A DNA stretch of 64,000 nt, from NCBI GenBank assembly GCA_905479105.1, contig CAJQLE010000002.1:62001-126000 (forward strand), read 5' to 3'. The notes beneath the pieces were generated by a model that did not search any database, was not told the DNA's origin, and saw only the letters and a list, made by a program, of their open reading frames with translations. Source of the DNA: an uncultured Flavobacteriales bacterium (GTDB lineage Bacteria; Bacteroidota; Bacteroidia; Flavobacteriales_G; Salibacteraceae). Shown one piece after another: positions 5,762 to 38,233 of the stretch; positions within the stretch are counted from its first letter, which is position 1; each line of letters starts with the position of its first letter. The position numbers were made by a program, and so were the translations under genes.

Positions 5762-7729
5762 TTAACGCTCGAGGATAGTTGATAAATCAGAAAACTCCTC
5801 TCCTACTTCTTCCCATCGCTTCATGTCTTCGTCTAACTGGCGTTGGACATCCGCATGCTCATAGAACATATTCGGGTTTTCTTTGGCCGCATCGGGGTTG
5901 TGCATTTTTTCCTCCATGTCAGCCAAGGACTTTTCAGCCTCTTCAATCTTTTGCTCCAAATTAGACATGGTATTCTTCAAGCGCTTCCAGTCTTTCTCCT
6001 TCTCCTTGCGCTCTTTATTGCTCAATCCGCTGTTTTCTGAAGCCTTAGTTTCAACTTTCGCTTTCTCGAGCTCTTTTTGTTTCTTCTCTTTGGCTCCTTC
6101 AAACTCTCGAAAACTTTGGATCTTGTAATTGGCTAAGAAATTGTCAATGGTGCCAATATGCTCTTTTACTTTCCCTTCTTTAAATTCAAAGGTTCGGTCT
6201 GTCAATCCTTGTAAAAACTCACGGTCGTGACTCACAACGATCAATGTTCCGTCAAATGAGTTTAGCGCTTCTTTCAATGTTTCTTTTGCACTGATATCCA
6301 GGTGATTGGTAGGCTCATCTAGAATGAGTAAGTTACTCGGCTTGAGCAGCAGCTTCGCCAATGCCAATCGAGATTTCTCTCCTCCAGAAAGCACTTTCAC
6401 CTTCTTTTCATAGTCGTCTGGTCCGAATAAGAATGCTCCCAATAGTGCACGCACCTTATGAATCTTGGCATTATCACCCGTAGCCGCATCTTCGATAACC
6501 TTCTCAACGGTTGACTCCTGATTCAAGGTTTTTTCTTGGATCTGAGCATAGTATCCAATTTCAACATTATGACCTATAGCTAATTCTCCTTCGCCATGCT
6601 CCTCGCCTACCACCATTTTTATCATGGTAGACTTTCCTTGTCCGTTTCTTCCTACAAAAGCAATGCGTTCACCTCTAAAAATATCAAAGTCTACACCAGA
6701 AAAAATCGTGCTATCGCCATATGCTTTTTTCGAATTTCTGGCTTTCAACACTACATCACCTGATCGTGGAGCTGGAGGAAAACGAAACCTGATTTTAGAA
6801 CCATCGGTTTCATCAATATGCACCCGCTCCAACTTATCCAGCTGCTTCATCTTACTCTGCGCTTGCTTGGCTTTTGAAGCCTTCGCTTTAAATCGTTCGA
6901 TGAAACGCTCTTGCTGGTTGATGTATTTCTGTTGATTTTCAAACGTGGCCTTTTGCTGGTCAATCCGCTCTTGCCTCAAGATGAAAAATCTAGAATAAGA
7001 AACGGAATAGTCGTAGATTTTTCCCTTCACAATCTCAACCGTGCGATTGGTAATGTTGTCTAAAAACATTCTATCGTGAGAGATCATCATGATGGAACCA
7101 GGGTACTCTTTAAAGAAATCCTCTAACCACATGATGGAATCAATATCCAAGTGATTCGTTGGCTCATCCAGCAGCAATAAATCTGGCTGCATTAGAATCA
7201 GCTTCGCCAATTCTACCCGCATTTGCCATCCACCGCTGAATTCAGAAATCTTTCTTGTAAAATCTTCTCTTTTAAAGCCAAGTCCCAACAGCACTAATTC
7301 AGCGCGTTGTTCAGTTTTACCATCGTCAATCATTTCAAGGCGCATGTGAATGGCTCCTAATTCATCGATAATGGCACTGTAAGAATCACTTTCGTAATCT
7401 GTGCGATCAGTCAATTCTTTTTGAATCTCTAAATCACGGTTTTTCAAGTCATTGATCTCGGCAAATGCCTTCAATGTTTCTGACCAAATGGTTTGATTGC
7501 CCTCAAAGACGATTTCTTGAGGCAGGTAGCCCACCTTTCTTCCATCGGGAATGATAACAGTGCCAGTATCAGGTTGCTGAAAATTTAAAATAATCTTCAG
7601 TAAAGTACTTTTCCCAACGCCATTCTTACCTACAAGACCAATGCGATCTCGCTCATTAATGACCAATGAAATGTCTTTAAATAGATCTATCCCGCTGAAG
7701 GATACAGATATGTTATTGAGGCTTATCAA
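5762..7729 (-). CDS. ABC-F family ATPase
   Basis: A soluble protein of 655 residues with two ABC cassettes and no membrane segment, the layout of ABC-F proteins that act on the ribosome. Cassette 1 has Walker A GKNGVGKST (about residues 34-42), an FSGGW signature and Walker B LLLLDEPTNHLD. Cassette 2 has GRNGQGKST, LSGGEKSR and LILDEPTNHLD. A lysine/glutamate-rich linker joins them, and the C-terminus is a long charged coiled coil resembling Uup/YheS-type members. The reading frame stays open to a TTG at 7753, but an exact TACCTTTG promoter element (7738-7745) lies inside that extension. I therefore place the start at the TTG at 7729, giving the family-typical opening ISLNNISVSFSG. Confidence 0.9.
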   Translation of the reverse strand: MISLNNISVSFSGIDLFKDISLVINERDRIGLVGKNGVGKSTLLKIILNFQQPDTGTVIIPDGRKVGYLPQEIVFEGNQTIWSETLKAFAEINDLKNRDLEIQKELTDRTDYESDSYSAIIDELGAIHMRLEMIDDGKTEQRAELVLLGLGFKREDFTRKISEFSGGWQMRVELAKLILMQPDLLLLDEPTNHLDIDSIMWLEDFFKEYPGSIMMISHDRMFLDNITNRTVEIVKGKIYDYSVSYSRFFILRQERIDQQKATFENQQKYINQQERFIERFKAKASKAKQAQSKMKQLDKLERVHIDETDGSKIRFRFPPAPRSGDVVLKARNSKKAYGDSTIFSGVDFDIFRGERIAFVGRNGQGKSTMIKMVVGEEHGEGELAIGHNVEIGYYAQIQEKTLNQESTVEKVIEDAATGDNAKIHKVRALLGAFLFGPDDYEKKVKVLSGGEKSRLALAKLLLKPSNLLILDEPTNHLDISAKETLKEALNSFDGTLIVVSHDREFLQGLTDRTFEFKEGKVKEHIGTIDNFLANYKIQSFREFEGAKEKKQKELEKAKVETKASENSGLSNKERKEKEKDWKRLKNTMSNLEQKIEEAEKSLADMEEKMHNPDAAKENPNMFYEHADVQRQLDEDMKRWEEVGEEFSDLSTILER

Positions 7730-7737
7730 AACGGCTG

Positions 7738-7745
7738 CAAAGGTA
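7738..7745 (-). promoter_or_regulatory. -7 promoter element (TACCTTTG) of the ABC-F gene
   Basis: An exact TAnnTTTG match ending 8 bases before the TTG at 7729. The predicted transcription start falls only a few bases before that codon, so the message would be leaderless or nearly so. This decides against the longer reading frame. Confidence 0.65.
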
Positions 7746-7787
7746 CATTTCAACGCGAGCCATTTTCAGGAAGTTTTAAATAAATAA

Positions 7788-15507: not shown

Positions 15508-15515
15508 CAAAAGTA
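15508..15515 (-). promoter_or_regulatory. -7 promoter element (TACTTTTG) of the YwqK-repeat gene
   Basis: An exact TAnnTTTG match ending 6 bases before the ATG at 15501, implying a leaderless or nearly leaderless message. Confidence 0.62.
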
Positions 15516-15543: not shown

Positions 15544-16086
15544 CTATTTTGAAGTTATCACATCTATAAAGTGAAATAAAGATGGATAAGTTTCTTTAGC
15601 CTTCGCCTGAGCACCAATTCCAACGCATTTCATGCCTAACCTTTGTCCAAATTCCATATCAGAAGGGGAATCTCCAGCGATGATAGATTTGGCGAACTCA
15701 ATAGAAGGATAGTCTGCACGCGCGTCAAATGCCATTCCTGTGCGTGGCTTGCGGTGACTTGGATTGTCCGCCTCCAAATCAGGACAGAAGTAAATCTTAT
15801 CAATGCGACCACCATTATTGAACACTTCTTTGATCATGTGCTGATGGATTGTAAAAAGGTGGGTATCGGTCATTATGCCTTTACCAATGCCTTGCTGATT
15901 GGTTACTACAACTATAACATCAAAGATTCTTGACGCTTTCTCTAAAGCATCTAATACACCAGGAAGAAACTGAAATTCATCAATCTGCTTTACGTAATCG
16001 CCAGGTAGCTTTTCATTAATCACTCCATCTCGATCCAAAAACAAAGTCCAGCTGCCATCAATTTCGCTATGCCAATCTTTTTTCAT
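15544..16086 (-). CDS. gmhB: HAD-IIIA phosphatase, GmhB-like (D-glycero-manno-heptose-bisphosphate 7-phosphatase)
   Basis: A 180-residue HAD-superfamily phosphatase. The nucleophile motif is FLDRDGVIN (Asp18, Asp20). Motif II is VVVTNQQGIGKG and the acidic motif is IIAGDSPSDMEFG. RKPRTGM matches the substrate loop of GmhB, which removes the 7-phosphate of heptose 1,7-bisphosphate in the ADP- or GDP-heptose pathway. It directly follows gmhA (TGATG overlap), which supports this role. The zinc-binding loop of classical GmhB (Cys-x-His ... Cys-x-Cys) is reduced to a single cysteine (FCPDLEADNPSHRKP), so the metal site is probably absent. A histidinol-phosphatase-like role is the alternative. Confidence 0.82.
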   Translation of the reverse strand: MKKDWHSEIDGSWTLFLDRDGVINEKLPGDYVKQIDEFQFLPGVLDALEKASRIFDVIVVVTNQQGIGKGIMTDTHLFTIHQHMIKEVFNNGGRIDKIYFCPDLEADNPSHRKPRTGMAFDARADYPSIEFAKSIIAGDSPSDMEFGQRLGMKCVGIGAQAKAKETYPSLFHFIDVITSK

Positions 16087-16658
16087 CAAGCGAAAATTCT
16101 ACTTTCAAGTTCTTGACAAAGCACATGACCTAGAGTAATATGTAATTCTTGAATACGCGCTGTATTATCCGAAGGAATTTGAAAGACATGATCAGCTAGT
16201 TTCCCCATTTCTCCTTTATGCTCGCCTAGGAAAGCAACGGTTATCATTCCGATTGATTTCGCCTTCTCGATGGCTTTAACCACATTTTTAGAATTTCCAC
16301 TGGTTGATAATCCAATCAAAACATCTCCCTTTCTGCCCATCGCCTCCGTCATTCTCGCATAAACCTCATCGTAACCATAATCGTTGGCTACAGCGGTCAG
16401 ATAACTTGAGTTTACGTGCAATGCCTCGGCAAATAAAGGTGCTCGATCTAGAATGAACCTGCCACTTAATTCTGCTGCGATATGTTGTGCATCTCCAGCA
16501 CTTCCACCATTACCGCACAACAAAAGCTTCTTATCTGATTTAAAAGCACTTTCAATCTGATCAATACATGCGTAAAAATCATTCTGAAATTTCTGATCAG
16601 CCAATAATGATTGTCTGAGATTAACTGAAGAATTTAAAGCTTGTTGTAAGTTATTCAT
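16086..16658 (-). CDS. gmhA: Sedoheptulose-7-phosphate isomerase GmhA
   Basis: A 190-residue SIS-domain isomerase that converts sedoheptulose 7-phosphate to D-glycero-D-manno-heptose 7-phosphate, the first step of nucleotide-heptose synthesis. Diagnostic stretches are LLCGNGGSAGDAQHIAAELSG, LIGLSTSGNSKNV and IQELHITLGHVLCQ, matching the family over its full length. It starts with ATGA overlapping the stop of the glycosyltransferase and runs directly into the gmhB-like gene. The later kinase/nucleotidyltransferase (HldE or HddA/C type) is not in this window. Confidence 0.93.
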   Translation of the reverse strand: MNNLQQALNSSVNLRQSLLADQKFQNDFYACIDQIESAFKSDKKLLLCGNGGSAGDAQHIAAELSGRFILDRAPLFAEALHVNSSYLTAVANDYGYDEVYARMTEAMGRKGDVLIGLSTSGNSKNVVKAIEKAKSIGMITVAFLGEHKGEMGKLADHVFQIPSDNTARIQELHITLGHVLCQELESRIFA

Positions 16659-17797
16659 GCGTCAAAATTAGTGGAGTAAAACGAAATGAAATGATCAACA
16701 AATGCATACCAAGAAAACCGTTTCTTTTCTTCCTTAATTGATTCTTCAAATGCTGTGGCATCCATATTAAAGAAACGCACGATTTGATCGGCTATATTCT
16801 GAGGGTCAACCGTTGAAAATAGGCCTGTTTCCCCTTCTATCAAGAACTCATCTAAGCCGCCCACCTTTGTAATTAGAGCTGGAATATTGAAGTGTAATGC
16901 CATTTGGGTAATTCCACTTTGAGTAGCGCTTCTGTATGTTTGAGTAACAAGATCCGCAGCGCAGAAGTAAGCAGGAATTTCTTCAGAAGGAATGAAATCA
17001 TTTCTCAAAATGACTCGATCCTCCATATGATGTTTTTTAATGATATCCTCATATTCATCCATGCTTTCATAACTCTCACCAGCCACGATCAAATTCACTT
17101 TTTGATTTGCTAACCTTTGATCTCCAAGTGCTTCCAAAAGCAGATCAAGTCCTTTATACTTCCTTATAAATCCAAAAAATAGAAGGTACTTGGCATGGGC
17201 ATCTAAGTCAAGCTTCATTCGAGCCTCTTTCCTCGAGATTACTTCACCCAATTGATCATTAATTGGATGGGGGAAATAAGAGGATGGCTTTTTAGAAAGC
17301 GTATAAATATCTCTTTTAACGGATTGAGAAAGCGCCATAAACGCATCACAGCTCGCCATGAAATACTTCGTAAAAAACGAGTCTAATAATCGTCTCTCGT
17401 GGGGTATCACATTATCTGTGAGTCCTATGATCTTAATGTTCTTGCCCAATAAAAATGCAATAGACCCCAAACAAGGGGCCATGTAAGGCAACCAGTAACG
17501 AACGATAACAATATCTGGGTTTAATTTATTAATCCTGCGAGCAGCAAATAACCAATTTATCGGATTAAAGCTGTGTATCCACCTGCGAATTCGCACTCCA
17601 TTTGGAGCGGGACCCTTATTAAACTGCGTTTTTCCTGGAAAAAGAAAATTGGGATACTGCACACTGAATGTCACCAATTGAGTATCATGACCAGCTTTTA
17701 CAAAAGCACGACACATAGCTTCGTTGGTATCCGCGATTCCTCCCCTAAATGGATGAGCCGGACCTATGATCACTATTTTCTTCTGTTTTACTCCCAC
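16655..17797 (-). CDS. GT-B glycosyltransferase (family 4 type)
   Basis: A 380-residue GT-B fold glycosyltransferase. The N-terminal domain begins KIVIIGPAHPFRGGIADTN, and the C-terminal nucleotide-sugar domain contains LLFFGFIRKYKGLDLLLEA, IVAGESYES and an E-x7-E-like region around ALITKVGGLDEFLIEGETGLF. No signal peptide or membrane span is visible, so it should act at the cytoplasmic face of the membrane. The start is GTG and overlaps the end of the sulfotransferase gene by 10 bases. The position between a sulfotransferase and heptose genes suggests surface-glycan assembly. Donor and acceptor cannot be read from the sequence. Confidence 0.87.
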   Translation of the reverse strand: MGVKQKKIVIIGPAHPFRGGIADTNEAMCRAFVKAGHDTQLVTFSVQYPNFLFPGKTQFNKGPAPNGVRIRRWIHSFNPINWLFAARRINKLNPDIVIVRYWLPYMAPCLGSIAFLLGKNIKIIGLTDNVIPHERRLLDSFFTKYFMASCDAFMALSQSVKRDIYTLSKKPSSYFPHPINDQLGEVISRKEARMKLDLDAHAKYLLFFGFIRKYKGLDLLLEALGDQRLANQKVNLIVAGESYESMDEYEDIIKKHHMEDRVILRNDFIPSEEIPAYFCAADLVTQTYRSATQSGITQMALHFNIPALITKVGGLDEFLIEGETGLFSTVDPQNIADQIVRFFNMDATAFEESIKEEKKRFSWYAFVDHFISFYSTNFDA

Positions 17798-18657
17798 AGA
17801 GCTAGATCAATATTATCGGGAAAACGCTCAGCTAAAATCTTATTGGATTCAGCAAAACGGGATTTGTATTCCAAAATCATCTTTTTATCTGCTTCCGAAA
17901 CAGGAGGCATGGCGGTAGAATTAAGCTTAAGATAAAGCGGGATCAAAATCTTTTCTTGCAGCCATTGAGGGACCAGAGGTTGTAATTGAAGACCAAGTCG
18001 GTGCAGTTTGGTGCTCCTCATTTTTCGGGTCTCATTTCTTTTCACAAAATCAAATTCATCATAGAACGAAGGCTCAATTCCAAGAAACTCAGCTAGGTTC
18101 TTCAATTCCTCGACACGGTTCTTGAAGACTTTTTCTAATTGCAATACATAAATTCCATCCTCTCCAAAAGCTTCAATCCATTGATCTATATAGGTGATAT
18201 ACTCACCCCGCTGCAGTGGATCACTTTCTGTGGAAGACGTTTCCTTTAAGTAATCTACATACGTTTTATCCAATGGAATATTTCCCAAGCGATACTTATT
18301 GAATCTAAATTGAGAATGAGCCCGAACAGAAGGTTCACGAAGTATGAAGACAATCTTAGGTTTTTGCTCAAACCCACTCAAATGCTTCAGTGCATTCTTC
18401 TGATAAATGTAGATTGGAGTGGCTTCCATAATGACCTTGGCATTAATGGCACAGTGATCAAAATATGGTAAATATCTTTCCAAGCCATGATTCATCACAT
18501 TCGCTGAAGAATTGAATCTTGAATTGATGGAGTCGTCAAAAAAATGAGTCTCTTTTGTCTTTGAAGCGCATACTTCAGGATGAGAAGAAAGCCACCAATA
18601 AAGCGAACTTGAACCGCTTTTAGGTGCACCTGCAATTATGGTGTTTGGTAATGGCAT
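17788..18657 (-). CDS. PAPS-dependent sulfotransferase
   Basis: A 289-residue sulfotransferase-fold protein. The 5'-phosphosulfate binding loop is at the N-terminus (IIAGAPKSGSSSLYWWL) and the 3'-phosphate motif is FILREPSVRAHSQFRF. EATPIYIY and the C-terminal region resemble heparan/carbohydrate sulfotransferase-like families. The frame stays open for 35 codons upstream, but an exact TATTTTTG promoter element (18666-18673) lies in that extension and the catalytic loop begins right after the ATG at 18657, so I use that start. It is the first gene of a four-gene overlapping operon with a glycosyltransferase, gmhA and gmhB, implying sulfation of a surface glycan. Confidence 0.87.
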   Translation of the reverse strand: MPLPNTIIAGAPKSGSSSLYWWLSSHPEVCASKTKETHFFDDSINSRFNSSANVMNHGLERYLPYFDHCAINAKVIMEATPIYIYQKNALKHLSGFEQKPKIVFILREPSVRAHSQFRFNKYRLGNIPLDKTYVDYLKETSSTESDPLQRGEYITYIDQWIEAFGEDGIYVLQLEKVFKNRVEELKNLAEFLGIEPSFYDEFDFVKRNETRKMRSTKLHRLGLQLQPLVPQWLQEKILIPLYLKLNSTAMPPVSEADKKMILEYKSRFAESNKILAERFPDNIDLALWE

Positions 18658-18665
18658 AAGCCGCA

Positions 18666-18673
18666 CAAAAATA
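18666..18673 (-). promoter_or_regulatory. -7 promoter element (TATTTTTG) of the sulfotransferase/heptose operon
   Basis: An exact TAnnTTTG match ending 8 bases before the ATG at 18657. It moves the operon start 105 bases downstream of the longest reading frame. Confidence 0.63.
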
Positions 18674-18779
18674 GAATTAGAACTGCATTGAATTGAAGCA
18701 TTCTGTAAAGTCTTCAAGTTAAGCCGGGATAATAGTTCTTTATTCAATTTCAATTTTACCATCCTCAGGGCATTTCATT

Positions 18780-18787
18780 TAAGTTTG
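18780..18787 (+). promoter_or_regulatory. -7 promoter element (TAAGTTTG) of the YdcF-family gene
   Basis: An exact TAnnTTTG match ending only 3 bases before the ATG at 18791. Its last three bases are the TTG that would start a longer frame. The predicted transcription start coincides with the ATG, so the message should be leaderless. Confidence 0.62.
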
Positions 18788-18790
18788 GGC

Positions 18791-19549
18791 ATGTTTTTCA
18801 TTCTTTCCAAAATCTTAGGATTCCTTTTCATGCCAATGTCATGGATTGTGATTGCGCTGGTAGCAAGTTTTTTCATAAAGAAATACTCTAAAAAACTGCG
18901 GTTAGCGGCATTGATTATTCTTCTGTTTTTTGGTAACTCATTCATTTTAAACGAAGTGAAGTTACTTTGGGAAGTACCTGTGACCCTTGATCAAAATCTA
19001 GATCACTACAAATACGGAGTTGTTCTAGGAGGATACGCATATTACTCACCTGAAAATGACCGAATAACATTCGCAAAAAGCGGAGATCGACTCTTCCAAG
19101 GATTGAGGCTTTTAAAAACTGATTACGTTGATCAACTCATTTTATCTGGTGGTTCTGGCTATATGCTTTTTCCAGAGTTGAAAGAATCCCTTTATGTGGG
19201 AAGTTATTTAGAAGCGATAGATGTGTCATCCGATGCAGTGATATTGGAATCTGAATCAAGAAACACACATGAAAATGCACTTAACACATTTGAAATTTTA
19301 AAAAGCCTTGGAGCAGAAACTAAACCAATCGTTCTGCTAACATCCGCATATCACATGCGAAGAGCAAAAGCCTGTTTTGAGAAGGTTGGGCTTGATGTAA
19401 TTCCATATTCTGCGGAATCTCCCTCAAATAAACGATTGTTTACTCTTGACCATTTACTTCTGCCTTCAGCTTCTGCCTTGGCCGAATGGAATGTTCTGAT
19501 TCACGAATGGATGGGCTTCATAAGTTATATCCTTGCGGGTTATGTTTAA
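18791..19549 (+). CDS. YdcF/ElyC-family (DUF218) membrane protein
   Basis: A 252-residue protein with two N-terminal membrane helices (about residues 4-28 and 36-55), followed by a DUF218 domain. Visible family features are VVLGGYAYY at the start of the domain, LILSGGSG, ESESRNTHENA and LLTSAYHMRRAKACF. Relatives such as ElyC and SanA are linked to cell-envelope integrity and to late steps of peptidoglycan or lipid-carrier metabolism; the biochemical activity is unsettled. The start is fixed by the promoter element at 18780-18787. It diverges from the sulfotransferase operon. Confidence 0.88.
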   Translation: MFFILSKILGFLFMPMSWIVIALVASFFIKKYSKKLRLAALIILLFFGNSFILNEVKLLWEVPVTLDQNLDHYKYGVVLGGYAYYSPENDRITFAKSGDRLFQGLRLLKTDYVDQLILSGGSGYMLFPELKESLYVGSYLEAIDVSSDAVILESESRNTHENALNTFEILKSLGAETKPIVLLTSAYHMRRAKACFEKVGLDVIPYSAESPSNKRLFTLDHLLLPSASALAEWNVLIHEWMGFISYILAGYV

Positions 19550-19651: not shown

Positions 19652-22600
19652 TTGAGCAAATCTGTCCTTATTGCAATATTAATTCTTCTCTGCACTCATC
19701 CTTTGAGTGCCCAGTTTTGGATGCAAAAAGGAGGTAGTCTTAATGTTGACGAGGCATACTCTGTGGTAGTTGACAATTTTGGTAATTCTTACGCTACGGG
19801 ATACTTTACTGGAACCGCAACTTTCGGAACAACATCACTCACATCTTCTGGAAGTTCAGATATTTTCATAGCAAAAATCAATAGCACGGGAGTTTATCAA
19901 TGGGCCTTGAAAGCAGGAGGAACTGGCAATGATCGTGGTTTATCCATCGCCTTAGATGGATCAAACAATGTCTTTGTAACCGGCTATTTCAATGGCAGTG
20001 CTGACTTCTCGGCAACCACGCTCACATCCAGTGGCCTTCAGGATATGTTTATTGCAAAATATTCAACAGCAGGAGTGTTGTCTTGGGCCGTTCGAGCAGG
20101 AGGAACTGATTCAGACATAGGCAATGGAATCTGCGTTGACAATTCCGGAAATGTAATTGTAACAGGAGAATTTAAAGGTATTTCATCGTTTGGCCCAAGT
20201 TCACTCACTAGCGTAAATGGCTCAACAGATGTTTTCATTACAAAACTTAATGGATTAGGTGTGTTTCAGTGGACCCAACAAGGATCAGGAACCGGCACCA
20301 ATCGAGGAATAGACATAGGTTGCGATGCTTCTGGAAATGTATATGCAACTGGGCAGTTCAGTGAAAACTTCACTTTTGATGTGCTTCATACAAATACAAT
20401 GTTTAATGTGGTCTACTTGGTTAAATTCAATAGCGCTGGTGTAGAGCAATGGTTTAAAACAATAGGCGGAGGAACTTCGGTGTTTGCTTATGACCTTGAT
20501 GTCAATTCGAGCGGAAACATTTTTATAGCGGGAGATTTTACGGGAAATCTGACTTTTTTCAACTCAACAAATACGACTCTAACAACCACCTATTCCAACG
20601 AAATTTTTGTCGCGAAGTATGCAAACAGTGGCACCACTTTATGGGCTTCAAAAAGTGGATCGAATAGCGCTGTATCAGCGAGGGGTGTCGCTGCAGACGC
20701 CAGTGGAAATGTATTTGTAGTCGGTCAGTTTGAATGTGCTTTTGATGAATACATGGAGGAATATGGTGATGCCATATTTAATTCAGTTGGATATGAAGAC
20801 ATTTTCATATCAAAGTTCAATAGTTCTGGAGTATGGAGCTACAGTAAACATATCGGAAGTCGGAATGAAGATTACGGACTAGGAATTGACATCAACAGCT
20901 CAGGACAAGCCATTTTTGCAGGGAGTTTCAAATCAGGCCTAAGTATTCCCACCAGTTCGAACTTTATAAATTCAAATCTAAGTAACTGGTCTTCTGCAAA
21001 CTGCGCCTCAAATAATGGATATTGTGGAGACCCCGACTATGGTACTTTCCACAAAATGACATCTATTGGTAATTCAGATATAATCATTGCCAATTGTTTT
21101 GATCCTAACCGTGATCCATATGATTACTATCAAAGAAGTGGAAATGGTTGTATTAGAGACATAGTTTCAGGATGCATTAACACAGGATGCCCCGATACAG
21201 TCTCCAACTGCAACAGCGCGCTCGTAACCGCTTTTCCAATAACATGCTCCAACGTTGGGCCTTCGATTGTTTTCAATTGGTCGAATGGCGCTTCAGGAAC
21301 GACAGTCAATCAAACCTTCTTCGCTTCGTCAGGCTATAAGTGGGTTGACTTTACCACAAAAGATGGATGTTTCACTCATAGAGATTCTATTTATGTGAAC
21401 ATTTTCCCTAATCCACCAAAGCCATTCATTGAAGATGATGTGGTGATTAATACACCAACCCCATTTCCCGTTCAAATAGATGTTTGCATTCCCGATACAG
21501 TAAAGTTGACAGGAAGCAATTTCACAGGAAACAATATTCTTTGGACTGGAACGGGCCTTCCTCCATCAGGAGTCCAGGACTCAATCTTATATGTGACAGA
21601 GACAGGTGTTTATACGTTCACAGTGGTCAATGCTTATGGATGTTCGTCACAATCTTCTGTACCAGTGACATTCTTTGACCCTCTAGATTCTTTTGAGCTG
21701 CGAGCTAACCTTCCTGATACCGTCTATATATGTGAAAATGTGCCTTACCAAATAATTCTATTTGACAGTGTCGACAACCCTCTTGGTGTGCCTATATGTT
21801 TCACTGATTCACAGCCATATATCAATACAACTATTAATTATACTCCAGCAAATTGGACGGTATTTGAAACTTGCGAAACGTTCTTTGATGTAAGTGCAAT
21901 AGACACAGGTTGGTTTTCATTTGATATAACCTTAATCAGGACGATTCCATGTGATACCGACACTTTCTACTTGAGTGACTCTATCTACTTTGTTCCGTTT
22001 CCTGCTCCTCAATCAGGACAATTCAGTATAGAAATGATCGGGAGTCAATATTTCTGCCCTGGCGGAAGTGTTATGCAATACGGATCAGGAAGTAATAACT
22101 ACACTTGGACAGGACCTTCAGTAAATGGATTAACCAATGACAGCTTGTTCATTAGCACTGCAGGAACCTATTCAATTTCATCTATTCTATACGACACAAA
22201 CATATATGGCTGCGTTGACTCAGCAACTGCATCTGCGATAAAATTGATCACTCAAAAACCTCAACCTCTAGTAACTTCGACCTCCTTATTCTTGTGTCCG
22301 AATGATACGGTATGGTTGACAGTTGCAAATTCTGGTGCAAGCCAGGGGTTCTTCTGGGAAGGACCAAACGGACCAATTCCTGGTGACTCAAGTTCCATTA
22401 TAGCTACAAATGCTGGTACGTACTTCTGTGTTGTAAATGACACCGATAGTTGTGACTTATCGAGTAATTCAATCATTCTCACACAGTACACGACTCCTTC
22501 GTTAGCTAGTGGAGGGAATTTGACCATTTGCGATGGAGATTCTGTAATTCTTAATGTAGTGTCGAGCGCAGGCAGTCAGATTGAATGGCTGCCGCCATTG

Positions 22601-23887
22601 AGTGGTTCAGGAACATCACAAACTGTTTATGAACCCGGAATTTACACGTGTAAAATTGTGTCTTGTGGTATAGAAACATTCGCTTCCATTGAGGTCTTCC
22701 CTTCTTACGTAGAGTCCGAAATAACACCGAGTGGAATTCTATGTTTTGACAGCACCATCACGCTATATGGCACCGTAGGAATGAGTACATATCAATGGAG
22801 CGGAAGCCCTTCGGGTGCTGATAGTTTAGTGATTTCAAGTGCTGGAACGTGCACCCTCACTACAACAGACTCAACGGGATGCTCAAAAGTTTCAGACCCC
22901 ATAACTATAACTATCACTCAAGAGCCAACTCAAATAAGCATAAGTGGATACCCCGTGTTTTGCAATGGGGATTCTATTACCCTATTTGGAAACTCTAACA
23001 TGAACAATTACTTATGGCTGCCTATAGGAGATACAACTCAAAATATCACAACGTTTGAAGCAGGCATATTTACTTTGAGAACAGTCGATAGTAATGGTTG
23101 CAAAGGATCATCTGAACCTTTGAGAGTGAGTATTCCTGATACAATAGCGCCATTTAACATATCAAGCGATTTGGATTTTTGCGAAGGTGATTCTGTTGAT
23201 TTCAGAGCTCGAAGAGGCGGAATGGCAGAGTATCTCTGGCTTCCTGACAGCGCTGTAGGACGAACTATAACGCTCACCCAAACTGGCAAGTATTCACTTA
23301 TTACAACGGACACTTTCGGTTGTTTGGCTTGGTCAGATTCGGTTAGTGTCTATGTGCAACCTAATGAAATAGACAAACCTTTTGGAGATGACACCCTGAT
23401 TTGTGCCGGCTCAGTAGCTTCTCTTTCAGCATTCAATAATATTGGAACTCTAAAATGGTCAGAACGTGCTTTTGGCAACGTTATCAATGAAGGAGAATTC
23501 TTTAAAACTCCTGCGTTGTATCAATCAACACCCTACTACGTGTGGTCAGATTTTGAGTTATGTAGAGGTGATACGGGAATAATATACGTTACGACTATGG
23601 ATTGCGAAACCGCGTTCATCCCAAATGTATTTACTCCGAATGGTGATGGTTACAACGAATACTTTACAATAAGGCTCAACGAAATCCAATGCTTTCATAT
23701 GGATATTTATAATAGATGGGGCGTAAAGCTTTTTGAAACAGACTCTGTAGAACCAGGTTGGGATGGCACAATACAAAACGATGGAAACCCAGCCCCGGAA
23801 GGTACATATTACTACGTAGTGGATTTCTGTCGTTTTAACGGAACTAAAGGTGACTTAAAAGGCTCTTTGACCCTTATTCGGAATTAA
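19652..23887 (+). CDS. Large SBBP-repeat protein with T9SS type B sorting domain
   Basis: A 1411-residue secreted protein with a signal peptide (residues 1-21, ending LSAQ) and a TTG start; no upstream in-frame ATG exists. Residues about 35-440 contain seven SBBP-type beta-propeller repeats, recognisable by the recurring pattern D-x-S-G-N-x-x-x-x-G-x-F (GNSYATGYFTG, GNVIVTGEFKG, GNVYATGQFSE, GNIFIAGDFTG and so on). A long array of Ig-like/PKD-like modules with paired cysteines follows. The end carries the type B sorting domain: NVFTPNGDGYNEYF, YNRWGVKLF, GWDGTI and EGTYYYVVDF. It is probably a surface adhesin or gliding-related surface protein; the target is unknown. Its 3' end overlaps the convergent CoA-transferase gene by 14 bases. 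Confidence 0.88.
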   Translation: MSKSVLIAILILLCTHPLSAQFWMQKGGSLNVDEAYSVVVDNFGNSYATGYFTGTATFGTTSLTSSGSSDIFIAKINSTGVYQWALKAGGTGNDRGLSIALDGSNNVFVTGYFNGSADFSATTLTSSGLQDMFIAKYSTAGVLSWAVRAGGTDSDIGNGICVDNSGNVIVTGEFKGISSFGPSSLTSVNGSTDVFITKLNGLGVFQWTQQGSGTGTNRGIDIGCDASGNVYATGQFSENFTFDVLHTNTMFNVVYLVKFNSAGVEQWFKTIGGGTSVFAYDLDVNSSGNIFIAGDFTGNLTFFNSTNTTLTTTYSNEIFVAKYANSGTTLWASKSGSNSAVSARGVAADASGNVFVVGQFECAFDEYMEEYGDAIFNSVGYEDIFISKFNSSGVWSYSKHIGSRNEDYGLGIDINSSGQAIFAGSFKSGLSIPTSSNFINSNLSNWSSANCASNNGYCGDPDYGTFHKMTSIGNSDIIIANCFDPNRDPYDYYQRSGNGCIRDIVSGCINTGCPDTVSNCNSALVTAFPITCSNVGPSIVFNWSNGASGTTVNQTFFASSGYKWVDFTTKDGCFTHRDSIYVNIFPNPPKPFIEDDVVINTPTPFPVQIDVCIPDTVKLTGSNFTGNNILWTGTGLPPSGVQDSILYVTETGVYTFTVVNAYGCSSQSSVPVTFFDPLDSFELRANLPDTVYICENVPYQIILFDSVDNPLGVPICFTDSQPYINTTINYTPANWTVFETCETFFDVSAIDTGWFSFDITLIRTIPCDTDTFYLSDSIYFVPFPAPQSGQFSIEMIGSQYFCPGGSVMQYGSGSNNYTWTGPSVNGLTNDSLFISTAGTYSISSILYDTNIYGCVDSATASAIKLITQKPQPLVTSTSLFLCPNDTVWLTVANSGASQGFFWEGPNGPIPGDSSSIIATNAGTYFCVVNDTDSCDLSSNSIILTQYTTPSLASGGNLTICDGDSVILNVVSSAGSQIEWLPPLSGSGTSQTVYEPGIYTCKIVSCGIETFASIEVFPSYVESEITPSGILCFDSTITLYGTVGMSTYQWSGSPSGADSLVISSAGTCTLTTTDSTGCSKVSDPITITITQEPTQISISGYPVFCNGDSITLFGNSNMNNYLWLPIGDTTQNITTFEAGIFTLRTVDSNGCKGSSEPLRVSIPDTIAPFNISSDLDFCEGDSVDFRARRGGMAEYLWLPDSAVGRTITLTQTGKYSLITTDTFGCLAWSDSVSVYVQPNEIDKPFGDDTLICAGSVASLSAFNNIGTLKWSERAFGNVINEGEFFKTPALYQSTPYYVWSDFELCRGDTGIIYVTTMDCETAFIPNVFTPNGDGYNEYFTIRLNEIQCFHMDIYNRWGVKLFETDSVEPGWDGTIQNDGNPAPEGTYYYVVDFCRFNGTKGDLKGSLTLIRN

Positions 23888-35890: not shown

Positions 35891-35898
35891 TAGATTTG
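35891..35898 (+). promoter_or_regulatory. -7 promoter element (TAGATTTG) of the patatin gene
   Basis: An exact TAnnTTTG match ending 4 bases before the ATG at 35903, predicting a leaderless message. Confidence 0.6.
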
Positions 35899-35902
35899 AA
35901 GC

Positions 35903-38233
35903 ATGCCATCCCGAGCTACACGGACACTAACCTTTATAATTATTATGCTTTCGCAATGTGCTTTAGCACAATCTGTTGGCGTAGTATTTAGTGGCGGTGG
36001 TGCTTCCGGATTAGCTCATGTTGGAGTTCTTAAAGCACTAGAAGAAAATGGTATCCCGATTGACTATATCGCTGGCGCCTCAATTGGAGCCTTAGTCGCA
36101 GGATTATATAGTGCTGGCTATAGTCCAGATCAAATTGAAGCGATGCTCACAAGCAGCAAGTTTCGAGACTTAGCCTCAGGCCAATTGGAAGATAAGTATG
36201 TCTATTATTTCCGAAAACCTCTTCAAAACGCGAATTGGGTCTCGATAAAGTTTTCATCTTTCTCAAACTTTCTTGAAACTTCTATTCCAACCAGTTTTAT
36301 AAATCCTGCTGCACTTGATCTTGAATTAATGAGAATTCTTGATCCAGCCAGCATGGTCTGCGACTATCAGTTCGATAGTCTTTTTATTCCATTTAGATGC
36401 GTAGCCTCTGATATTGTAGATAAGAAATCCGTGGTGTTTAAAGATGGTAATTTGAATGTTGCCGTAAGAGCAAGCATGAGCTACCCTGCTTATTTAAAGC
36501 CATTGAGAATAGATGGCAAATTGCTTTATGACGGAGGTCTTTACAATAATTTCCCAACCGATGTGATGCGGGATGAATTCAATCCAGATATAATAATTGG
36601 TAGTAATGTATCATCCAACGAATCTCCACCAGAGGAAGATGACTTTTTAAGTCAAATTCGAAATATGGTCATAAGTAAAACGAATTATCAGCTCAATGGT
36701 GATTCAACTGTCCTGATTGAACCTAAGGTCGAATACGGAATATTCAATTTCAACCACCTTCAAGAAAGTATCGACTCAGGTTACGTTGCTACTCTAAAAG
36801 AAATTGAGACAATAAAGGCCATAGTCCATCGCAGGGTTCATCATAAAGTTATGGACGAAAAGAGACTAAAGTTCAATCGTAGAAAAACGAGTCTAGTCTT
36901 CAATGAATATGAGTATGAAGGTCTAACTAAGACGGAGACTAGATACGTGAACAGAATTATGCAACCAAAAAAAAATAGTAAGCTGGGATTTCCAGAGATG
37001 AAGAAAAACTATTATCGCATCTATGAAAATGATAAAATAGCTCGACTGTTTCCTTTTTCAACCTATAATGCTTCTGACAGCACGTATAAGTTAACCCTTA
37101 AAGTAAAGAAGGAAAAAAACATGCTTCTAGAATTTGGAGGTAATGTTTCTTCTAGACCCATAAACACAGGTTATATTGGTATTGGCTATAACACGATCAA
37201 CAATACCGGGGTAAGCTTCAACGCGAATGCTTATTTCGGAAAACTTTACGCCTCTGTTTTGGCGAAAGCGAGAGTGGATATCCCAATAAGATTTCCGATA
37301 TATATCGAACCCATAATAACAATTAATCGCTGGAACTACTTTGATAGTCGTGCAACTTTCTTCGAGGATAATAATTCACTCTTTCTTATTCAAAATGAAC
37401 AATTCGCCATAATCAACACCGCCTTTGCTGCGAGTAATAAAACTAAAATATCTCTATCAGGTGGGCTGCTCTCTCTCCGTGATGATTATTATCAGTCCAA
37501 TTCTTTCGGACAAGATGATATAACGGATAAAACCGTTTTCTTAGGCTCAACATTCGCAGCATCATTTGAAAAGAACAGCCTGAATGATAAGCTGTATCCA
37601 AATGAGGGATCAGCATTACGATTATCTATACGTAATACCAATGGAGAAGAATCCTACAACCCAGGAACAACAGCATCTGAACAAAACGTAGTTCTAAAAA
37701 ATCACAATTGGATTGATGCAAAACTCAGCTATGATCACTATTACAAATCCAAAGGAATCATACGTCTAGGCTTTTATGCAGAAGTGATGTACAGCGATCA
37801 AGATCTCTTTACAAACTATACCGCTAGCTCTCTTCGATCTCCCTCATTTCAGCCTACACCTGAAAGTAAAACTTTATTTCTTGAGTCCTTTAGAGCATAT
37901 CAATATGCCGCATTCGGGCATAAATTCATAATCAACATTATAAAGGATGTTGATTTAAGACTTGAAGGTTATGTGTTTCAGCCCTATAGATTTGCAGAAA
38001 ATAGAAATGATCAAGGTCTGGTTCCAAATGACAAACGAAGTCTTGAAAGGCGATATACAATAGCAACGGCAAACGCTGTATATAGAAGTCCGCTGGGGCC
38101 AATAAGTTTCTCTTTAAATTATTACTACAATGTGCCCGAAGTAAGCTCAGACAATCTTGGGGAACAAAGAGTACCAATTACCTTTTTATTCCATTTTGGA
38201 TACATCCTCTTTAATGACAAAGCACTAAAATAA
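35903..38233 (+). CDS. Patatin-like phospholipase fused to an Omp85/BamA-type barrel
   Basis: A 776-residue secreted protein with a signal peptide (about residues 1-23, ending ALAQ). The patatin domain (about 24-310) has the oxyanion loop GGGASGLAHVG, the nucleophile Ser60 in GASIG and the catalytic Asp210 in YDGGLYNNFP. The region 310-380 is compatible with a POTRA-like linker. The C-terminal half is rich in amphipathic strands ending PITFLFHFGYILF, as in 16-stranded Omp85 surface-antigen barrels. The architecture parallels PlpD/FplA type Vd autotransporters, in which the barrel displays or exports the lipase. Substrate specificity is not predictable. Confidence 0.88.
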   Translation: MPSRATRTLTFIIIMLSQCALAQSVGVVFSGGGASGLAHVGVLKALEENGIPIDYIAGASIGALVAGLYSAGYSPDQIEAMLTSSKFRDLASGQLEDKYVYYFRKPLQNANWVSIKFSSFSNFLETSIPTSFINPAALDLELMRILDPASMVCDYQFDSLFIPFRCVASDIVDKKSVVFKDGNLNVAVRASMSYPAYLKPLRIDGKLLYDGGLYNNFPTDVMRDEFNPDIIIGSNVSSNESPPEEDDFLSQIRNMVISKTNYQLNGDSTVLIEPKVEYGIFNFNHLQESIDSGYVATLKEIETIKAIVHRRVHHKVMDEKRLKFNRRKTSLVFNEYEYEGLTKTETRYVNRIMQPKKNSKLGFPEMKKNYYRIYENDKIARLFPFSTYNASDSTYKLTLKVKKEKNMLLEFGGNVSSRPINTGYIGIGYNTINNTGVSFNANAYFGKLYASVLAKARVDIPIRFPIYIEPIITINRWNYFDSRATFFEDNNSLFLIQNEQFAIINTAFAASNKTKISLSGGLLSLRDDYYQSNSFGQDDITDKTVFLGSTFAASFEKNSLNDKLYPNEGSALRLSIRNTNGEESYNPGTTASEQNVVLKNHNWIDAKLSYDHYYKSKGIIRLGFYAEVMYSDQDLFTNYTASSLRSPSFQPTPESKTLFLESFRAYQYAAFGHKFIINIIKDVDLRLEGYVFQPYRFAENRNDQGLVPNDKRSLERRYTIATANAVYRSPLGPISFSLNYYYNVPEVSSDNLGEQRVPITFLFHFGYILFNDKALK

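Follow-up and report, generated by a model that had tools for sequence, protein, structure and literature searches.

A candidate -7 box three bases ahead of a ydcF-type start codon, and a minority class of predicted leaderless genes, in a Salibacteraceae genome

Genes and candidate promoters in the window

The window is a stretch of 64,000 nucleotides from an uncultured Flavobacteriales bacterium of the Salibacteraceae (GenBank assembly GCA_905479105.1, contig CAJQLE010000002.1, positions 62,001 to 126,000), and coordinates without a locus prefix refer to it. Candidate promoters were taken as strict matches to TAnnTTTG, the -7 box of primary-sigma promoters in Bacteroidota, and the gap is the number of bases between the box and the start codon. 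The features concerned are as follows:

7738-7745, minus strand: TACCTTTG, box of the ABC-F gene; gap 8 to TTG 7729, predicted leader about 4 nt
15508-15515, minus strand: TACTTTTG, box of the MORN_2-repeat gene; gap 6 to ATG 15501, predicted leader about 2 nt
16086-16658, minus strand: SIS-domain gene, with exact gap-4 leaderless geometry
16663-16670, minus strand: TAATTTTG, box of the SIS-domain gene; gap 4, predicted +1 at the A of ATG 16658
17788-18657, minus strand: sulfotransferase gene, divergent from ydcF; start read as 18657, as in the G011 orthologue
18666-18673, minus strand: TATTTTTG, box of the sulfotransferase gene; gap 8, predicted leader about 4 nt
18780-18787, plus strand: TAAGTTTG, candidate -7 box (TAnnTTTG) of the ydcF-type gene; +1 predicted by the register at 18792
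18788-18790, plus strand: GGC, the 3-base gap between the ydcF box and ATG; AAC, of equal length, in G011
18791-19549, plus strand: ydcF-type gene, DUF218 domain, 252 aa, ATG 18791; start backed by a conserved N-terminus
35891-35898, plus strand: TAGATTTG, box of the patatin gene; gap 4, predicted +1 at 35903, the A of ATG
35903-38233, plus strand: patatin-domain gene, ATG 35903; box at gap 4-6 kept in many relatives

The ydcF-type gene starts with AUG (ATG 18791), and its product matches PF02698 (DUF218) with an E value of 4.2e-26. An earlier note on this DNA had placed the octamer three bases ahead of the start codon, and both the coordinates and the gap of 3 were confirmed. TAAGTTTG satisfies TAnnTTTG, and the 75 bases upstream of the gene contain no other box, either strict or with one mismatch. 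Since no rival box lies in these 75 bases and the closest relative keeps both box and gap (see below), TAAGTTTG is probably the promoter of the ydcF-type gene. It carries a G at -9 and so falls outside the TAHHTTTG refinement known from F. johnsoniae, which has no G at -10 or -9; in the excerpts of PMC6847099, G at -9 is virtually absent from F. johnsoniae boxes. No TTTG was found near -33 of the ydcF promoter (18750-18765). That element comes from Bacteroides fragilis and is weak or unfound in F. johnsoniae, as given in passages of PMC7366714 and PMC6847099. In-frame ATGs lie further inside the gene at 18830 and 18836. No phage match to 18500-19000 was obtained among 50,697 records. The product of the ORF after ydcF (19652-23887, plus strand) is 1411 aa long and contains a CHU_C type IX secretion domain.

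The divergent sulfotransferase ORF (17788-18762, minus strand) extends upstream to ATG 18762, probably by chance. In G011 the orthologue begins at the position of 18657 and lacks such an extension, so that 18657 is most likely the true start here as well. From 18657 the spacer to the ydcF start codon measures 133 bases, versus 28 from 18762.

Among the other genes of the window, the box of the patatin gene lies four bases before its ATG, as had been reported. Gaps of 6-8 had been attributed to three further genes; they hold for the YwqK (MORN_2-repeat) gene (6), the sulfotransferase gene (8, from ATG 18657) and the ABC-F gene (8), but the ABC-F start is TTG, not ATG. The ABC-F label reflects two ABC_tran domains and ABC_tran_Xtn, as read here. 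There is no ATG near the box in its ORF (5762-7753, minus strand, start 7729), and a near-leaderless UUG message would be unusual if real. The SIS-domain gene had been missed. By sequence, the clean leaderless candidates of the window are the patatin and SIS genes, with ydcF off by one base.

Register of the transcription start

The box occupies -12 to -5 in Flavobacterium psychrophilum, according to excerpts of PMC9723704, and in the probable promoters of F. johnsoniae described in passages of PMC6847099 the box and the start are 4 or 5 nt apart. In the present genome the counts rise sharply at gap 4 (see below), which agrees with the register of -12 to -5, in which a gap of 4 makes the A of ATG +1. 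This geometry predicts +1 at 35903 for the patatin gene and at 18792 for ydcF. With a gap of 3, the published spacing would put the ydcF +1 within the start codon, at either its U (18792) or its G (18793).

Distances from box to start codon across the genome

Genes were called in 60 stretches of 20 kb from the genome of the window, plus the window itself (1.264 Mb, 1036 genes). Each strict TAnnTTTG was scored by its distance to the first ATG of a gene, and the mean of eight permuted octamers served as control. The boxes observed (control in brackets) were as follows:

Gaps 0-2: 1 (2.0)
Gap 3: 2 (0.5)
Gap 4: 21 (0.9)
Gaps 5-8: 27 (2.1)
Gaps 9-14: 9 (2.2)
Gaps 15-19: 27 (2.1)
Gaps 20-24: 37 (3.6)
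Gaps 25-29: 14 (3.6)
Gaps 30-39: 16 (7.1)
Gaps 40-59: 19 (11.1)

The distribution is bimodal over the 1036 genes, with 48 boxes at gaps 4-8, 9 at gaps 9-14 and 78 at gaps 15-29. Gaps 4-14 hold 57 boxes, 48 of them at 4-8 (p 2e-9 for the dip at 9-14), and at gaps 3-8 a box precedes 50 of the 1036 genes, compared with a permuted-control mean of about 3.5. A similar picture was obtained with the 327 genes whose start is unambiguous (none at gaps 0-3, seven at gap 4, nine at gaps 5-8, four at gaps 9-14 and 34 at gaps 15-29). Gap 4 is enriched genome-wide before ATG (68 matches versus 35 in the control), and this peak is absent for GTG or TTG. Gap 3 is not: TANNTTTGN3ATG gave 29 whole-genome matches versus 46 for the reversed control, and the gap of ydcF falls outside the genome's own short-gap class (gaps 4-8). 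Near-zero predicted leaders are thus supported, at the level of sequence, as a distinct minority class in this genome.

The count at gap 4 carries an ascertainment bias, since TAG or TAA in a gap-4 box is an in-frame stop and favours calling the following ATG as the first. When counting was limited to TAYnTTTG, to control for this bias, the peak persisted (11 genes at gap 4, one at gap 3). G stands at -10 in 8 of the 21 gap-4 boxes; this excess probably reflects the same bias and is not claimed as a feature. G at -10 or -9 was counted in 15 of the 86 boxes at gaps 15-34, compared with 279 of 706 boxes overall, so that it is disfavoured, not excluded; AG at these two positions, as in ydcF, was found in 2 of the 86 leadered boxes.

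A same-strand neighbour lies within 20 nt upstream of 4 of the 48 gap 4-8 genes, 3 of the 86 genes with boxes at gaps 15-34, and 312 of the 893 genes without a box in the counted classes. Short-gap genes therefore sit mostly at the start of transcription units, and for this reason the short-gap octamer is unlikely to be a translation signal instead of a promoter. A at -3 was present in 33% of gap-4 genes, 15% of those at gaps 5-8, 48% of those at gaps 15-34 and 39% of those with no box, a small comparison that fits the leaderless reading. Shine-Dalgarno-like (SD) motifs before ATG were near the shuffled level in the 1036 genes (observed versus shuffled: GGAGG, 3 and 3.4; AGGAG, 11 and 6.7; the four-base set, 69 and 69.8).

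Pfam hits of the gap-4 genes were mixed (OEP, GcpE, histidine kinase, AA_kinase, release factor, LysR, deaminase and RuvX among others), and no common function was evident among the genes scanned; the scan covered the 19 gap-4 genes outside the window except two that cross a stretch boundary. The GcpE gene (L008:15789-17738, 649 aa) has gap-4 geometry, as does its orthologue in genome G020. Its domain match spans residues 25-638 against a profile of 343 positions, which suggests a long insertion.

Short-gap boxes in relatives

The nearest relative found (G011) has a ydcF protein of 77% identity. Its spacer between ydcF and the sulfotransferase gene has diverged from that of the window, save for two conserved stretches, one per promoter: TAAGTTTG is retained with a 3-base gap in one, and the sulfotransferase box TATTTTTG sits within the other.

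For wider comparison of ydcF, a phylum protein search (E 1e-20) matched 13 of 158 genomes, which was too few, and a class protein search (E 1e-30; 173 of 395 genomes) was used for orthologues instead. A phylum-wide scan for the box, a gap of 4 and ATGTTYTT matched 84 of 296 genomes; it was too unspecific for ydcF and was dropped. The class search contributed rows from its best-match loci and from 60 regions chosen by hand across genera, out of the 173 matching genomes. Before tabulation L073, whose match begins at residue 37, was excluded, as were L087-L090, which are weak or partial matches, L091, which repeats the locus of L066, and L103-L106, which are either partial or carry the names of other phyla. 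Removal of the duplicates L092, L095 and L100 and of L129, with a misplaced start, reduced the 133 orthologue rows to 129. These carry 80 genus labels, one of which ('named') lumps several records, and the rows are neither independent nor random.

Strict boxes in the 129 rows were distributed as follows: two at gap 3, eight at gap 4, five at gaps 6-8, two at gaps 9-14, 16 at gaps 15-23 and two at gaps 24-34. Gap 3 was confined to the genome of the window and G011, two close species, and the gap-4 rows comprised four from genus g14, one from g3, one from g255 and two from Hymenobacter. No strict box was present at gaps 0-34 in 94 rows; in 21 of these a box with one mismatch lies at gaps 3-8. 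Ten genera include ydcF genes with short gaps, alongside leadered versions, but most rows are uninformative. The second residue is F in 126 of the 129 rows, with FF in 117, and the orthologues share the MFFxLSK start, even where the box lies at gaps 15-23. This conserved N-terminus supports the start at 18791.

A search for the patatin gene within the taxonomic family matched 29 of 35 genomes, own included, and one sequence (match from residue 109) was dropped. A strict box at gaps 4-6 precedes 18 of the remaining 28 sequences, own included (nine at gap 4, five at gap 5, four at gap 6), and these 18 span genera g1, g2, g7, g13 and g14. This count leans towards the hypothesis, because the in-frame starts of L254, L259, L260, L262 and L263 were picked with the box in view, and the starts of L258, L259, L260 and L262 are GTG or TTG. 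The other sequences have a one-mismatch box at gap 5 (two), boxes at gaps 11, 18, 19 and 19 (four), or no strict box near the start (four).

Few orthologue pairs were informative. Five own short-gap genes had an orthologue in the other sampled stretches, and in four cases this was short-gap too; one of the four is a class II tRNA-synthetase gene, with gap 5 here and gap 4 in a class-level relative. The fifth pair is a hit of 31% identity, perhaps a paralogue. One own gene without a box pairs with a gap-4 hit of 38% identity. For leadered genes of the own genome, the partner was leadered as well in 11 of 14 pairs at genus level and in 4 of 8 at class level.

Share of short-gap genes

Leaderless translation had been proposed to be common in this organism. 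The class looks real, but it is a minority: a strict box at gaps 4-8 precedes 48 of 1036 genes (4.6%) and accounts for 28% of the 173 boxes at gaps 0-59, so that most box-bearing genes are leadered. After subtraction of the control, the share at gaps 0-8 is about 33%, a value based on permuted octamers, not mapped promoters. Boxes at gaps 0-8 versus 9-59 numbered 51 and 122 in the own genome, and 7 and 51 in a pooled class sample of 20 genomes with 20 kb each (p 0.008). In a pooled family sample the numbers were 13 and 48, and the own genome did not differ significantly from it (p 0.25). No gap-4 box was seen among genes with unambiguous starts in either the pooled family (81) or the pooled class (74) sample.

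Interpretation of the ydcF promoter

The sequence shows the box, the gap and the start codon of ydcF, the bimodal distances in the genome and the conservation of box and gap in one relative; the true 5' end, the sigma factor and leaderless translation we infer. We are evenly divided for and against the reading in which TAAGTTTG is a primary-sigma -7 box that drives the ydcF-type gene, with transcription starting at or in the start codon (18791-18793). It is favoured by the absence of another box in the 75 bases upstream, the conservation in G011, the short gaps on other ydcF genes, the conserved N-terminus and the genome-wide pattern (two distance classes, a gap-4 peak specific to ATG, and few close same-strand neighbours ahead of gap 4-8 genes). 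It is weakened by the unenriched gap of 3 and the +1 that this implies, the G at -9, the missing TTTG near -33, the restriction of gap 3 to two close species and the 94 rows that lack a strict box at gaps 0-34. The gene would then act like the leaderless and near-leaderless genes of this genome, whose predicted leaders measure 0-4 nt. The leadered class is larger, at about 11-25 nt by prediction, and predicted leaders between the two, of about 5-10 nt, are scarce. Ribosomes able to recognise an AUG at the 5' terminus would translate the leaderless messages. The earlier note had named ydcF as the leaderless case. Its octamer is probably a promoter, but the gap of 3 puts the predicted +1 inside the AUG, and the clean geometry is a gap of 4. 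The leaderless class is well supported by sequence, and its exemplar appears as an outlier, one base off the class geometry (gap 3, versus 4-8). The ydcF message that makes protein would most likely start at A18791, with a start site chosen one base closer to the box than usual, since transcripts starting at 18792 or 18793 would lack the AUG.

In a rather unlikely alternative, the promoter is real and RNA polymerase starts at 18792 or 18793. Most transcripts would then be without an AUG and poorly translated, or would be read from the in-frame ATGs at 18830 or 18836, which exist and would give a leader of about 37-44 nt. The published register with its usual spacing of 4-5 nt and the lack of preference for gap 3 genome-wide speak for such a start. 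The MFFxLSK sequence, however, is conserved in orthologues, including those with boxes at gaps 15-23, and hence is probably translated.

We doubt to a similar degree that the octamer is a chance match or a minor promoter, with an undetected promoter upstream that provides an ordinary leader. The G at -9, the missing TTTG near -33 and the unenriched gap of 3 would agree with this, as would the 16 of 129 ydcF rows with boxes at gaps 15-23 and the 94 with no strict box at 0-34. Against it, G011 keeps box and gap, no second near-consensus box lies within 75 bases, and short-gap boxes recur on ydcF orthologues.

A further proposal we consider distinctly improbable: in this lineage, leaderless initiation would be a conserved, gene-specific second start mode, with a leader window of 0-4 nt and a sparse zone at 5-10 nt, and the choice of start site at ydcF would act as a translational switch. 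If so, the ydcF promoter stands one base too close in two species, and a start at A, U or G would decide whether the AUG exists.

Bacteroidota make little use of SD. A box at gap 4-8 with a dip at 9-14 is a genome-only signature that predicts leaderless genes, and the patatin and similar genes keep it across genera. Such genes would offer a natural set on which to test leaderless initiation, which has been regarded as rare in this phylum. The ydcF case poses the question of the outcome when +1 falls inside the AUG.

Comparison with known systems

Leaderless messages are a known minority in Bacteroidota. In excerpts of the respective papers, leaderless messages account for 5.5% of 890 CDSs in F. 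psychrophilum (PMC9723704), 13% of leaders are not above 10 nt in F. johnsoniae (PMC6847099), and about 3.7% of leaders are under 10 nt in B. thetaiotaomicron (PMC7366714). The phylum is classed as SD-scarce, with leaderless mRNA mentioned for some Flavobacteriia, in PMC10783764. The weak SD use ascribed to this organism is borne out by motifs near the shuffled level, but the suggestion that leaderless translation is in keeping with it meets the view of the F. johnsoniae authors, in the excerpts of PMC6847099, that leaderless translation cannot account for the missing SD. Among the matches listed in a literature search on leaderless genes in Bacteroidota/Flavobacter, no title or abstract opening concerned conserved leaderless genes.

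The TAnnTTTG box, SD-poor genes and leaderless messages of Flavobacterium and Bacteroides, as described in passages of PMC9723704, PMC6847099 and PMC7366714, are all as here. Leaderless mRNAs are a minority there by mapped or predicted starts, whereas here 28% of the strict boxes at gaps 0-59 predict leaders of 0-4 nt, a forecast from boxes and not from mapped ends, and the figures are not directly comparable. The published values are lower, and an elevated leaderless share in this genome is possible, with the reservation that the measures differ. A survey (PMC3160421) places Bacteroidetes among the clades with many atypical genes, and the string TTTG is absent from its text. The TA-led leaderless genes that its excerpts describe in Actinobacteria and Deinococcus-Thermus carry, as here, a box at a fixed short distance before the start; that box is TANNNT, unlike the TAnnTTTG of this genome.
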